From a virus, in the IMG/VR virus record IMGVR_UViG_3300026201_000006, positions 1-64,000 of that record: a stretch of DNA of 64,000 nucleotides; one strand, written 5' to 3'. The notes below the pieces were generated by a model. The model ran no database searches, was not told the DNA's origin, and saw only the letters and a program-made list of their open reading frames with translations. How positions within the stretch are numbered: the stretch's first letter is position 1; every line of letters starts with the position of its first letter. Positions 27,556 to 32,538 of the stretch are shown piece after piece. Position numbers and translations under genes: made by a program.

Positions 27556-27580
27556 AAGGGGACGAAAGTCCCCTTTTTTT
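27556..27580 (+). terminator. Terminator between gene 32 and the minus-strand tail genes
   Basis: AAGGGGAC (27556-27563), loop GAAA and GTCCCCTT (27568-27575) form a perfect eight-pair stem followed by TTTTT. It ends gene 32 transcription. On the minus strand the same stem directly follows the tape-measure stop and may also stop that operon. Confidence 0.9.
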
Positions 27581-29582
27581 ACATTGTGGCTTCTAGTCGT
27601 GTAGACTTAATATAGTCACCATAACCTTCATCTTTATATTGAATTATATTAGTAACATTAACAGCCGCACCTCGTGCAGTATAACCATCCTGATTTTGTA
27701 TTTCAGCTATTCTCAGTGCTACTTGTCTCTCATTAGCTATTCGAAATAGTTCTGAAGCACTTTCGCCAAATCTCCAATCTTCGCCGTATTTAGTCTTCAT
27801 GGCTTGCAGGTCTGCAACGCCCATTTTTTTACCAGTTGCTGGATCAGTATTACTTGCATAATGAGCAATATAGTTACTTGTCATTGATTCAGCCCCTTCA
27901 TCATCAATTCCAAGAGCTTTACGTAAATTCCATGTTCCGCCACCTAATAGTTTTGGAAATTGAAATTCCCAATCTGGTATAAGGTCTTTTATCCAATTAA
28001 CAAATTTACCCGGTAAATCTGTAACCCAGCTCCACATGTCTCCAGCTGTACCTAAAGGATCACTTAACAACTCTCCTATATAATCTGATATAGCAGAAAT
28101 TGCATGGAAAGGGAATGCAATAATTTTATGTATTAAGTCTGCGAAACTGAATCTTTGTATTGCTGCAAGAGCATCACCGCCAATACCTTGCCCAGGTAAA
28201 ATATTACCATCTGCGTCTGTTTCAAGACCAAACATTTTTCTAATACCCCATACTGCTAATCCCTTAATAGCATCTGCCAAACCACCAACAAGATAACCTA
28301 TTGCACCACCACCGGCTTCACCTAATATCGTATACCATTTAGCATCATCTTCAGCAGCTTCAGCTTTACCTGCTTTGAATCCTTCAAATACTGAGAATAT
28401 AGCAGCAATTGGCCAGAGTAATCTACCTATAAATTTCACAGCACCAAGATTGGCAAAGGTTTTAAAAGTATCTTTAATTAATTTACCACTTGTACTACTA
28501 GTCCATTTGGCTATACCACCACTAAGTTTAGTAACAGGTGAAAACATTGTATTTAATCTTCGTGTCAGTAAAGCAGCATATCCAGCAGACATCCATGCTG
28601 CTCTAACAGGTAATGATCCACGAGGTCCAGGTCTAGCACCAAGCGGTTTACCATCAGGGCCTAATCCAATAGCATTATATGCTTTTAGTCTTATGTCAGC
28701 TAATCTAGTCTTTACACTTTCAGTAAGCCCAGCCCATCCAATCTTTTTCCATTCACCATCAACTTTCGTATATATTGGTTTACCGGCTTTGTCATAACCA
28801 AACCATGCGTATATAGAAGTTTTAAGGCTTGTATATGCAGTAGCAATCTTTCCGTCTTTTAACCATGCTCCAATAGTAGTTGTACCCCAAGTTTTAACAG
28901 CAGCTAAAGTAGCCAAAGCTTTTGTATGCCATAAATGCATACCGTTATATGCTAAAGTAATCGAAGCTGTTAATGCTGTGATTAATGGGATCATGCCATA
29001 CTTAAACCAGTTTTCTTTAATGATTGACCATTCTTCTCTTTTCTTTTGTCGTGCTAATTCCCTAGGAGATAAAAATCCAGCAATCATCTTTCTAAATTTC
29101 TTAGTGAAGTCAAACATCTCACCGCCATGCTCTCTACGATATTCCTCATCACTTTGGTCTTTCTTCTGATCTCTTGCTTTTCTATATTTAAACCTCAAGA
29201 GGTCATCGTTAGTGTTTTCAACATTTATTCGGTACATCATCTTGTTTGATTTCTCAATCAAACGTCTTGTCATAAATGTAGAGTGTTTAATTACTTCTTG
29301 GACTTTTTTCTTTGCCCTATTTTTAGGCGCGTCCATTTTTTCTTTAGTAATTTTACCAGCAATATTGGCTTTATATCTTCGCTTAAAGTCTTGTGCATCG
29401 TTAATGATAGGTTCGCCCGTAGCTGACGTCTTAGAGTTTGGATTTAAAATAGCCTCATCTGCTTTTTCTTGGCGTTTAGCTTCTTCAGCTTCTTTCAGTC
29501 TATCGCGCGTACTCAGTTGATTCTGCTTTCGCAGAAGTTGTACTACTTCACCTAATAAACTTTCTTGTGTTTTCTTTGCCAT
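27579..29582 (-). CDS. 29: Putative tape measure protein (gp29-like)
   Basis: The 667-residue protein begins with a basic, strongly helical region (residues 1-180, many KR/KK pairs). Hydrophobic and Gly-rich segments follow (WFKYGMIPLITALTASITLA near 195; GGGAIGYLVGGLADAIKGLA near 430), and a folded C-terminal end. This is the profile of tail tape measure proteins. The gene directly follows the gp26/gp51-like pair, the canonical chaperone-then-tape-measure order. At about 1.5 angstrom per helical residue it would set a tail near 100 nm, as in T4. Sequence similarity to T4 gp29 is not evident by eye. Confidence 0.6.
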   Translation of the reverse strand: MAKKTQESLLGEVVQLLRKQNQLSTRDRLKEAEEAKRQEKADEAILNPNSKTSATGEPIINDAQDFKRRYKANIAGKITKEKMDAPKNRAKKKVQEVIKHSTFMTRRLIEKSNKMMYRINVENTNDDLLRFKYRKARDQKKDQSDEEYRREHGGEMFDFTKKFRKMIAGFLSPRELARQKKREEWSIIKENWFKYGMIPLITALTASITLAYNGMHLWHTKALATLAAVKTWGTTTIGAWLKDGKIATAYTSLKTSIYAWFGYDKAGKPIYTKVDGEWKKIGWAGLTESVKTRLADIRLKAYNAIGLGPDGKPLGARPGPRGSLPVRAAWMSAGYAALLTRRLNTMFSPVTKLSGGIAKWTSSTSGKLIKDTFKTFANLGAVKFIGRLLWPIAAIFSVFEGFKAGKAEAAEDDAKWYTILGEAGGGAIGYLVGGLADAIKGLAVWGIRKMFGLETDADGNILPGQGIGGDALAAIQRFSFADLIHKIIAFPFHAISAISDYIGELLSDPLGTAGDMWSWVTDLPGKFVNWIKDLIPDWEFQFPKLLGGGTWNLRKALGIDDEGAESMTSNYIAHYASNTDPATGKKMGVADLQAMKTKYGEDWRFGESASELFRIANERQVALRIAEIQNQDGYTARGAAVNVTNIIQYKDEGYGDYIKSTRLEATM

Positions 29583-29588
29583 AAGTTT

Positions 29589-29780
29589 TTATCCCATTTT
29601 TGCTTGTCGTTCCTTATTACGTCTGTTCTCTTCTTCAATATGTTCCTTCATGAGAACTAAATATAATTCCCTTTCCCATGGTAACATATTTTCTAAATCT
29701 ACTAAACTAAAATTATGATGGACCATTAAAGCAAAATTAGTTTTTAACTGATTTGCTACGTTATCATGTGAAAGGGCTAC
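29589..29780 (-). CDS. 51: gp51-like tail/baseplate assembly ORF, probably expressed by -1 frameshift
   Basis: A 63-codon frame without a usable start codon follows gp26 and is reached by slipping one base back on a run of eight T at the gp26 stop. It contains FALMVHHNFSLVDLENMLPW and ERELYLVLMKE. That resembles the 'LPWERE-(I/L)Y' core of the short downstream product of tail assembly chaperone pairs. T4 has gene 51 in this place. The product would be a gp26-51 fusion. An internal ATG (45 residues) lacks a ribosome site. It ends six bases before the tape measure ATG. Confidence 0.65.
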   Translation of the reverse strand, partial: VALSHDNVANQLKTNFALMVHHNFSLVDLENMLPWERELYLVLMKEHIEEENRRNKERQAKMG

Positions 29781-30487
29781 GAAAAAAAATCTGTCAATCC
29801 TTTCAGCTGTTTAACATTATGATGTCCACATGTACTACACTTATAATCAACATCATAAGTTAATACCGGTGAGTCTGTCATAAAGTTTATGATCTTAGCA
29901 AACTGCTCATTATTTAAACTTTCAACAAACCTCACTACTTCTTTAAACGGTGCATCTTTAGTTGTATATGTTTCTTCACCACTATAAATTGTATCAATTG
30001 TTTTTGCTACCATATTAATAGCAGCTTCAGTCTCAGTAGCTCTTTGAGCCTGAGTTAAACTATCTGAATAACCAAGATATTTTAAATCAACACTAATCTC
30101 GTCATTTATTTTTACATGCATATCTGCATCAGTATCTAGATTAGCTACATAAACATCATCTAAATTAATTTTTAATTTTTGTGTCGCTTCGCACTCATCA
30201 TTTAAACACTTCAATTGAACTTCAATACCTTCACCTACAGATTTACTACGCAAAGTAGTAAACATATATTCGATATCAAACATCGTGAATGACTTCATAT
30301 CAACCGGTGTTTCTATACAAGCCTTGATAATATCAGTCACAGCTCTTTCAATTGCTACTTCATTTTCAGATTCTAATGCAATTAATAAAATCTTTTCTTC
30401 TTTGACCACATATGGTCTGTATGTAATACTTTGCCCTGTTGAGGGTACAATCATATCATACTTTGGGGTTGCTATAATTGGCAACAT
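29777..30487 (-). CDS. 26: Baseplate hub assembly protein gp26
   Basis: The 236-residue protein shows the T4-like gp26 pattern: an N-terminal MLPIIATPKYDMIVPSTG, a core with helices ending in TMFDIEYMFTTLRSKSVGE, and two Cys pairs (CLNDEC and CSTCGHH) forming a zinc ribbon. In T4 gp26 helps assemble the baseplate hub. Relatives of this arrangement act as tail assembly chaperones. GGAG precedes the ATG. The last codons read through a T8 slippery run before TAG, allowing a -1 frameshift into the gp51-like frame. Confidence 0.82.
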   Translation of the reverse strand: MLPIIATPKYDMIVPSTGQSITYRPYVVKEEKILLIALESENEVAIERAVTDIIKACIETPVDMKSFTMFDIEYMFTTLRSKSVGEGIEVQLKCLNDECEATQKLKINLDDVYVANLDTDADMHVKINDEISVDLKYLGYSDSLTQAQRATETEAAINMVAKTIDTIYSGEETYTTKDAPFKEVVRFVESLNNEQFAKIINFMTDSPVLTYDVDYKCSTCGHHNVKQLKGLTDFFS

Positions 30488-30512: not shown

Positions 30513-31211
30513 TTAAAATACACGCTTAAATATATCTAACGTATTCGCTCCTATCTGTAACATCTTATTTGCTACATCTTCAAATCCATCTCTTAAATCT
30601 AATGCCTTAAAATTATCATATTCAAACGTAACACTTACTTCCATCATTCCTTCTGATCCTTCAGTTAAATCAACTTGACTTACCGTAATTGGATATGCAT
30701 TCGTAAGTTTAACTGTATATCCAGGAATCACATCATTCGATGGTGACAGTTGTTGTATGAGTACATCAGTACAATAGTCTTGTTTATAAAATGCCTTATA
30801 GTGTCTACCTGATGTATCAATAATCATTTCTTGCCACATATCAAAATACTTTTTAATATAGTAATCATTCGTTAATAAGAATGACATAGTAACTTCATCT
30901 GTTGCAGCGGAATAAGGTTTTTTAGACATGTGGTGGTTATGCATAGCTTCTTGTGTGAGTATACGTTTACCTGGCATCATTGCTGTTTGACATAATAAAA
31001 ACATATCTCTCGGATCAGTAATAAAGTCTGCTATATTTACACCATCACCTGAAATTAAATTGCTCAAGAGAGTTGCGGGGTTATATCCTAATAAACTGTT
31101 TATAGATTTTGATGGATGGGTTATATAAACTGCGTATCTATTTCCACGCGCTAAACCACCTCTACGGTTAATTGTAGACTTCATTGTATCGATACTTACT
31201 GGTAATGCCAT
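30513..31211 (-). CDS. 54: Baseplate tail-tube initiator (gp54-like)
   Basis: The start at 31211 (MALPVSIDTM, 232 residues) follows AAGGAG and overlaps the upstream gene's stop; an in-frame ATG 27 bases earlier is inside that gene. The protein has tail-tube-fold features: NRYAVYITHP at the N terminus, a central FLLTNDYYIKKYFDMWQEMI helix and the late VSVTFEYDNF strand. Because the main tube gene usually sits next to the sheath, and gp48 lies across the divergent promoter, gp54 is more likely than gp19. Confidence 0.65.
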   Translation of the reverse strand: MALPVSIDTMKSTINRRGGLARGNRYAVYITHPSKSINSLLGYNPATLLSNLISGDGVNIADFITDPRDMFLLCQTAMMPGKRILTQEAMHNHHMSKKPYSAATDEVTMSFLLTNDYYIKKYFDMWQEMIIDTSGRHYKAFYKQDYCTDVLIQQLSPSNDVIPGYTVKLTNAYPITVSQVDLTEGSEGMMEVSVTFEYDNFKALDLRDGFEDVANKMLQIGANTLDIFKRVF

Positions 31212-31789
31212 TAGTACATTCTCCTTGATTGTCCCCAAACATATCTTTGACTCTTCTTCCTAAACGCAGCCGTTTGTAAAAATATTGCTATATTCCATTC
31301 TGCAGCATTTACCTTCATAACATTAGATGTTACATTAGGTGTCAAATAATGTTTGTAGCACGGTGCAAAATACTTATAGTTCTTCGTAGATTGCAGTAGC
31401 TTATATGTTATTTTAAATTTAGTTGAATCATCAAACTTCTGATTATTCGTTACATCATTTAATTTGTCTAAGAAGATAGCACGAACTTTAGGTGGTAAGT
31501 AATGCAAGTTTAACGCATGGAATCCACCTGGTGCTTTACCTACAATAATAGCTAAAGGAAATGTGTCATAGTAAGGTAAAGTCTTTTTAAGCTTTGGATC
31601 ATACGTGTACATTACCATATCACCAGCTTTTATACGTGTCTTCTTTAACCTATCATCTTGCAAAACATTTGGCCCTAACTTACCAAGCTTCTTTACATTT
31701 TTAGCAAACCATACTTCAGCTTCTTTAGTTCTTGCTTGTATTCCTTTACGGAATGCTTCTGATTCTAACTTGTCAAACAAACTAGCCAC
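31211..31789 (-). CDS. Conserved T4-like structural protein
   Basis: The 192-residue basic protein contains MVMYTYDPKLKKTLPYYDTF followed by PGGFHALNLHYLPPKVR, a combination I recognise from tail or virion proteins of T4-like marine phages. I cannot name the T4 equivalent. It starts inside the end of the small membrane protein gene and its stop overlaps the gp54-like start, so the three are co-translated. Confidence 0.7.
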   Translation of the reverse strand: MASLFDKLESEAFRKGIQARTKEAEVWFAKNVKKLGKLGPNVLQDDRLKKTRIKAGDMVMYTYDPKLKKTLPYYDTFPLAIIVGKAPGGFHALNLHYLPPKVRAIFLDKLNDVTNNQKFDDSTKFKITYKLLQSTKNYKYFAPCYKHYLTPNVTSNVMKVNAAEWNIAIFLQTAAFRKKSQRYVWGQSRRMY

Positions 31790-31976
31790 TAAAAGTCTCC
31801 ATTAATTGCGGTCCGAATACTACCATGATATATGCTATAATACTCATAGCTGCTATACCACCTAGTAAAAACTTTATTTTAAAATCATCTACCATCATTT
31901 TAAATCCTATTATTTCGTTCCCCAATATTCTTAGAGATATTTCTAGTTTACCATCACTTTGATCTTCTTCTTTCAT
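31782..31976 (-). CDS. Small membrane protein, leaderless late gene
   Basis: A 64-residue protein with an acidic N terminus and one C-terminal transmembrane helix (IKFLLGGIAAMSIIAYIMVV). TATAAATA lies five bases before its ATG, so the late transcript should begin at the ATG itself. A weak AAGG is too far away to serve. A role in DNA ejection or tail assembly is possible from its place in the tail operon. Confidence 0.65.
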   Translation of the reverse strand: MKEEDQSDGKLEISLRILGNEIIGFKMMVDDFKIKFLLGGIAAMSIIAYIMVVFGPQLMETFSG

Positions 31977-31981
31977 AACTA

Positions 31982-31989
31982 TATTTATA
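31982..31989 (-). promoter_or_regulatory. Late promoter TATAAATA (minus), ATG at predicted start
   Basis: The octamer on the minus strand is followed by five bases and then the ATG at 31976, which coincides with the expected transcription start for T4 late promoters. Confidence 0.6.
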
Positions 31990-32482
31990 CCTTTTTACCA
32001 AGTGTTTTCCATATTCTTCTACCAGTTTTAGTTTTGCTTGCTTTAAACCCTAAGGTCATTGTCTTAATACCCATTGCCTCTAATTCTTTCTCGGTCCAAA
32101 TATAAAACTTATACCCACGGTTTTCACAAAACTTATTTGCATATTCCCATTTAGAAACATTCTTCATGTAGGTTAATGCTTCATTAAGCTTTTTACGTTT
32201 AGGCGGTTTTGTTTGTGATGATGGTTTAATTTCAACTAACCAGGTCTCACCCTTTGTAGTTCTTATAGTAAGGTCAACAAAGTATCTATGAGGTTTATTA
32301 TCTGTTTTACATATATAACCTATTACAGTTTCTTCTGAATTCCACCACTTTACCCATGACGCATTATCTAAATGTCGAAATGCATTGCGTTCCCACAATG
32401 ATCTATACGTTATTTTGTTTGGGTCACCTTTATACTTATGAAGGTTTTTTGGCTTCCATGATCCAGAATATGTTTTTTTCAT
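31985..32482 (-). CDS. 4: Head completion protein gp4
   Basis: T4 gp4 (also called gp50/4) completes filled heads before tail joining and has a nuclease-like fold. This 165-residue protein begins MKKTYSGSWKPKNLHKYKGD and continues ITYRSLWERNAFRHLD, typical of gp4. Later come a strand with Asp (RYFVDLTIR) and VEIKP, the DxEIK-like pattern of PD-(D/E)XK folds. I prefer the start at 32482 because residues upstream do not fit the family. Its ATG sits five bases after a minus-strand TATAAATA. Confidence 0.88.
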   Translation of the reverse strand: MKKTYSGSWKPKNLHKYKGDPNKITYRSLWERNAFRHLDNASWVKWWNSEETVIGYICKTDNKPHRYFVDLTIRTTKGETWLVEIKPSSQTKPPKRKKLNEALTYMKNVSKWEYANKFCENRGYKFYIWTEKELEAMGIKTMTLGFKASKTKTGRRIWKTLGKKV

Positions 32483-32487
32483 ACAAC

Positions 32488-32495
32488 TATTTATA
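32488..32495 (-). promoter_or_regulatory. Late promoter TATAAATA (minus) for gp4
   Basis: The octamer is five bases from the gp4 ATG, so the predicted RNA start coincides with the start codon. It is separated by only eight bases from the plus-strand late promoter at 32504, making a divergent pair. Confidence 0.7.
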
Positions 32496-32503
32496 CAAAT
32501 CGT

Positions 32504-32511
32504 TATAAATA
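32504..32511 (+). promoter_or_regulatory. Late promoter TATAAATA for the baseplate operon
   Basis: It would start RNA near 32517, leaving a leader of about 20 bases with AAGGAACC before the gp48 ATG at 32539. This leader is normal, unlike the opposite-facing gp4 promoter. Confidence 0.75.
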
Positions 32512-32538
32512 AGTAATATACAAACATAAGGAACCATT

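Follow-up and report, generated by a model that had tools for sequence, protein, structure and literature searches.

Introduction

Slippage of the ribosome into the –1 frame is known from the tail assembly chaperone genes of many phages. In the G/GT pair of phage lambda, a short chaperone gene has a –1 slip near its 3' end, and the extension that is read after the slip has no start of its own. For the relatives of T4, the abstract of a study by Vladimirov and colleagues reportedly names genes 26 and 51 of T4 and states that the frameshift is kept in several T4-like groups. In a 2016 review, G-T frameshifting is described as widely conserved "except T4". In the PRFect paper, which cites Vladimirov et al. 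2022, some T4-like phages are stated to have a short gene and a long fusion gene, with no frameshifting; the Adele paper refers to the same study when it describes the chaperone genes of T4-like phages as having poly-T slip sites. As paraphrased in PMC10885494 and PMC12846349, the T4-like chaperones of Vladimirov, Gautam and Davidson (2022, Virology 566:9-15) are of the same family as the proteins that are discussed here, with short and long forms, a poly-T slip and, in some phages, a fused long gene; the idea of a frameshifted T4-like chaperone is already published.

Here, we have compared these systems with a locus in a stretch of viral DNA of 64,000 nucleotides, which we refer to as "the window" (positions 1 to 64,000 of the IMG/VR record IMGVR_UViG_3300026201_000006); it is part of an unannotated 76-kb virus record. 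A previous sequence-only reading of the window had proposed a likely programmed –1 frameshift that joins gp26 to a gp51-like open reading frame (ORF). We have found that, in this T4-like virus of bacteria, gp26 and the –1 frame very probably constitute one gene for a frameshift-expressed tail assembly chaperone pair. The three features of lambda G/GT that are mentioned above are common to the window, where the slip is a predicted one, whereas the heptamer of the window is all T and its tape measure protein is putative.

The gp26 gene and its –1 extension in the window

The features of the locus are the following:

30513..31238, minus strand: upstream tail-tube-type gene (PF23849, E=1e-6; phrog_45, E=1.2e-29)
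29777..30487, minus strand: gp26 gene, short form (TAC-N like), 236 aa, ending in DFFS-stop, with matches to PF12322 and phrog_150
29798..29803, minus strand: AAAGGA, Shine-Dalgarno-like, 9 bases 5' of the first slip codon, a possible stimulator
29783..29789, minus strand: slippery heptamer T TTT TTT, one codon ahead of the gp26 stop, read directly
29777..29779, minus strand: zero-frame stop TAG of gp26, read directly
29589..29783, minus strand: –1 extension, gp51-type (TAC-C like), 64 codons and a stop, with a match to phrog_634
27579..29582, minus strand: next ORF, 667 aa, putative tape measure protein, located directly after gp51

The minus strand at the site reads GGATTGACAGATTTTTTTTCGTAGCCC. 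The 3' end of gp26 (GGA TTG ACA GAT TTT TTT TCG TAG) includes a run of eight Ts (29782-29789, minus), where the heptamer T TTT TTT occurs in the right phase for tandem –1 slippage; the –1 reading consists of TTC (29781-29783) and 63 further codons (VALSHDN...KMG), followed by the stop TAA at 29589-29591, and the full frameshift product is predicted to have 299 aa. The earliest ATG of the –1 frame, at 29726, would give an ORF of 45 aa, and reading the sequence ahead of it has revealed no Shine-Dalgarno-like sequence. The gp26 end with its open –1 frame, and an extension that lacks a start codon with a ribosome site, had both been described in the sequence-only reading and are confirmed here, as is the gp51-like character of the extension: the –1 product matches phrog_634 ("baseplate hub assembly catalyst", gp51) with E=2.4e-22 and the C-terminal end of phrog_150 with E=1.2e-4, while gp26 itself matches PF12322 (T4_baseplate, E=1.4e-54) and phrog_150 (E=2.5e-59); NCBIfam gave no match. 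The 76-kb record of the virus, which may be a fragment, contains one gp26 match, at this locus.

Among the 76 ORFs of the window (greedy, non-overlapping, at least 60 aa), four have an X XXY YYZ heptamer within their last five codons, and gp26 is the only one of these four with a long –1 extension. Conservation is nevertheless the real test of the site, since a long –1 extension alone is common, with 27 of the 76 ORFs having one that reaches 60 codons.

The –1 ORF had also been placed between gp26 and a putative tape measure gene: a large ORF does follow, at 27579-29582, and we infer its identity as the tape measure protein from its position only. The 667-aa ORF matches no protein family and has no PHROGs match at E 0.01, and neither do four of six ORFs at the same place in relatives, the other two having matched mixed families; a profile of eight post-gp51 ORFs gave no match to the annotated tape measure protein of HTVC008M (a single sequence, probability 5%) and a probability of 9% against the single sequence of phi-Grn1. 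At two cyanophage-type loci (L104, 3896-6661; L071, from 2186), the families matched by the large post-gp51 ORF bear the names endolysin and peptidase, and the ORF of L071 is annotated as "late control gene D protein"; the placement of this ORF suggests a tape measure protein, perhaps one bearing an enzyme domain. On the upstream side, a T4-type cluster (window 31211-32527, minus) includes genes for a DNA end protector (phrog_429) and a TnsA-like head closure protein (phrog_218), separated by a 64-aa ORF.

The predicted fold of the short form and the tail domain

The AF2 model of gp26 (46 sequences) has a pLDDT of 89. When 796 PDB chains were aligned to it, the top matches were 3FGX (Z 8.3), 2OB9 (Z 7.3) and 5IR0 (Z 5.4), all on the N-terminal ~90 residues, and the next chain had Z 2.5; Z values of 7-8 are near the range that is flagged by the warning of the alignment tool. 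The HK97 tail assembly chaperone, 2OB9, aligns over 83 residues at 11% identity. In the VIA-align list, chaperone-like chains are matched by the N-terminal part of gp26 only, and in contrast to the HK97 chaperone, gp26 of the window carries a second half that is without a match in the chain list. The Foldseek matches against the PDB are weak (2OB9, E=1.0; 3FGX, E=1.2). With moderate confidence, the model thus points to a chaperone-like fold of the HK97 type for the short form; a structural comparison to known tail chaperones had been suggested in the sequence-only reading as a check. The tail domain, i.e. the –1 part, is modelled as three helices with a pLDDT of 89.

The third match, 5IR0, is ORF19 of a PICI-like element of Vibrio cholerae (83 residues aligned); judging by the model, this protein of a phage satellite may be tail chaperone-like.

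Conservation of the slip site and of the open –1 frame

Our comparison is based on 171 ORFs with the gp26 domain from 169 loci, i.e. the window (L069), 153 viral contigs and 15 phage records. Contigs were kept only when the end of gp26 is complete (L063 and L068, with an incomplete gp26, were left out); the contig scans used single-protein queries and peptide patterns with at most the best 80 matches listed, and the loci are a non-random sample. Four of the 171 ORFs are T4-type, with T4 and Melville supplying two ORFs each, and the other 167 are not. Because some genomes are present both as a phage record and as an IMG/VR locus, we also give counts after clustering of gp26, at 80% identity (53 groups) and at 40% identity (12 groups).

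In all 167 loci that are not T4-type, the –1 frame continues without a stop for 55-68 codons past the end of gp26, compared with at most 27 codons for the +1 frame. An in-frame T TTT TTN is located ahead of the stop in 166 of the 167 (T TTT TTC in 96, T TTT TTT in 69 and T TTT TTA in one), one codon ahead of it in 159 loci; by cluster, the heptamer is found in 52 of 53 groups at 80% identity and in 11 of 12 groups at 40%. The sole exception is Vibrio phage K476. Four further phage records all have the open –1 frame, and three of them have the heptamer: T TTT TTG in P10VF, T TTT TTC in D525, T TTT TTA in XG4 and none in K362. Both the T run and the frame offset, whose conservation in relatives the sequence-only reading had left as a check, are thus widely kept.

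The heptamer is distinctive at the nucleotide level as well. Outside the slip site, these genes have an in-frame T TTT TTN at 3 of 11,978 codons. The first Phe codon is TTT in 51 of 51 Phe-Phe pairs at the slip, against 6 of 27 pairs elsewhere, and where Asp, Asn or Ser precedes the slip, T is the third base of its codon in 51 of 51 cases, compared with 1314 of 1681 background codons (p=6e-6); as the representatives are related, the p-values of codon choice serve as guides only.

The length of the T run bears on a different explanation, where RNA polymerase slips on the run and adds a U to some of the transcripts: an inserted U gives the same –1 reading, and the run of the window is eight Ts long. 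Among 52 representatives, however, 23 have a run of six Ts, 24 one of seven and 5 one of eight, and the conserved feature is the phased X XXY YYZ heptamer, including T TTT TTC, TTA and TTG with six Ts. Run lengths of 6-8 are more in keeping with ribosomal slippage on a phased heptamer than with slippage of the polymerase on a long run, and we consider the latter very improbable.

Selection on the –1 frame ahead of its start codons

The –1 part could also be a separate small protein made from its own start, with translation beginning at ATG 29726 or re-initiating once gp26 has terminated. A small gene of this kind is annotated in several records, 7 of the 167 loci have an ATG that overlaps the stop of gp26, and the two heptamer-less Vibrio phages, K476 and K362, both have the overlapping ATG. 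Against this, the ATG of the window is located deep inside the domain and has no ribosome site, an SD-like site precedes the first start codon in only 1 of 53 representatives, and a separate start leaves the heptamer without a reason to be kept. The gp51-type tail domain is moreover conserved from its first residues: the conserved ALSH...NF precede the ATG, in a region where the –1 frame is under selection. Over codons 2-16 past the stop, which are mostly ahead of the first start codon, pN/pS of the –1 frame is 0.096 in the cyanophage-type loci (1807 pairs, non-independent) and 0.53 in the clade of the window (190 pairs, non-independent), while the other two frames have values of at least 1.28; we have counted the 0.53 of the window clade, ahead of the usual ATG, against the frameshift reading. 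A separate start is, on balance, very unlikely in our judgement. Chance, or a homopolymer error of sequencing that splits a fused gene, might be suspected from the long homopolymer of the window taken alone and from the frequency of –1 extensions of at least 60 codons (27 of 76 ORFs), but can hardly be credited when the same split recurs in all 167 records (53 clusters at 80% identity), in many of which the run is six Ts long.

A programmed –1 frameshift, as originally proposed, is therefore very likely the right reading, to judge from the site, its phase, the conservation of its codons and the selection on the –1 frame. The reading of the product as a chaperone is likewise backed by the matches to the gp26/gp51 families and by the fold match to the HK97 protein.

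Possible stimulators of the slip

Ahead of the slip, 45 of 52 representatives have an AGG-type SD-like 4-mer, mostly at –13 to –15, compared with 5-14 of 52 at five control offsets. Conserved Lys/Arg-Gly residues account for part of this enrichment, and the 4-mer is a candidate stimulator. In the 60 bases downstream of the slip, no shared 3' RNA structure was found among the 52 representatives (mean fold z –0.95, compared with 0.03 to –0.80 at nine other offsets), and for that reason we claim no 3' RNA stimulator. A pairing of upstream GAAAGG with downstream CCTTTC, seen by eye in the window and at some loci, does not hold at others and was left out of account.

T4 genes 26 and 51 and the two-gene relatives

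The chaperone genes of T4 are homologous to gp26 and its –1 tail in the window (PF12322, phrog_150, phrog_634). Genes 26 (208 aa) and 51 (249 aa) lie in divergent orientation, and the PF12322 domain is found in both products; in gp51, PF12322 covers residues 1-201 and phrog_150 covers residues 3-248, tail included. In the alignment, the end of T4 gp26 (GLKEFFELL) falls at the slip position, where gp51 continues into the tail. As gp51 is the gp26 domain with the same tail in frame, and gp26 breaks off at the slip position, T4 has a separate gene for each of the two forms. The suggestion that gp26/gp51 is the T4 version of the chaperone is borne out by this arrangement, while three of its details are contradicted: the gene order is not the same in T4, with the two genes being divergent; gene 51 is a complete fusion, and no downstream fragment; and T4 is not a case of frameshifting. 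T4 (divergent genes) and RB43 (tandem genes) need no frameshift, whereas the window has one gene and a –1 frame.

The divergent pair also occurs in Melville, Proteus phiP4-3 and Aeromonas phage 31. In RB43 (L176, 3001-4294), unlike T4, the chaperone genes are in tandem on one strand, the long before the short, which is possibly a trace of duplication. In the tree, the five long forms group together (support 100/99) and the frameshift-type proteins are all on one side (93/91); the tree is unrooted with long branches and does not give the order in which frameshifting and the two-gene arrangement arose.

Discussion

We infer the occurrence, the rate and the ribosomal nature of the slippage, and propose the following course of events. 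Most ribosomes would reach the TAG and release the 236-aa short form, while a minority would slip by –1 in tandem on T TTT TTT, with both tRNA-Phe re-pairing, and would read 64 further codons, giving the 299-aa long form with its added helical domain. By analogy with lambda gpG/gpGT, from which the binding partners are taken, many short forms and a few long forms would coat the tape measure protein, and the added domain of the long form would recruit the tail tube subunits. In T4 and its close relatives, the two forms come from gene 26 (short) and gene 51 (long, an in-frame fusion).

K476 (L081, 3190-3230) and K362 (L172, 3700-3750) have lost the heptamer (CTT TTT and CTT TTC, respectively) and kept the –1 tail domain, and in both, an ATG overlaps the gp26 stop as TAATG, which may reflect a switch from frameshifting to re-initiation; these phages may re-initiate, slip at a weaker site or combine the two. 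Beyond the 167-locus set, the overlapping ATG occurs in K362, P10VF, D525 and XG4. We suggest, with considerable doubt, that the T4 superfamily presents a graded and possibly new series of routes to the long chaperone:

Pure frameshifting: the window, cyanophages, Pelagibacter phages, Aeh1
Heptamer and ATG overlapping the stop: Schizotequatrovirus, some rhizobial phages, a Stenotrophomonas phage, a Pseudoalteromonas phage
Overlapping ATG and degenerate slip site: Vibrio K476, K362
Two genes: RB43 (tandem), T4 (divergent)

As the principal claim has already been published, the gain of the present analysis lies in confirmation, breadth and better annotation. The joined gene is annotated in none of the 16 annotated phage records of the frameshift type that we examined, where the tail domain is either unannotated or a separate small gene (the XG4 record has no annotation), which amounts to a gap in annotation. 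The comparison also makes the role of T4 gp26 and gp51 concrete and testable. Should translation start at the overlapping ATG, some phages would produce a free tail domain that acts in trans, and this free domain would be an intermediate toward the loss of frameshifting.
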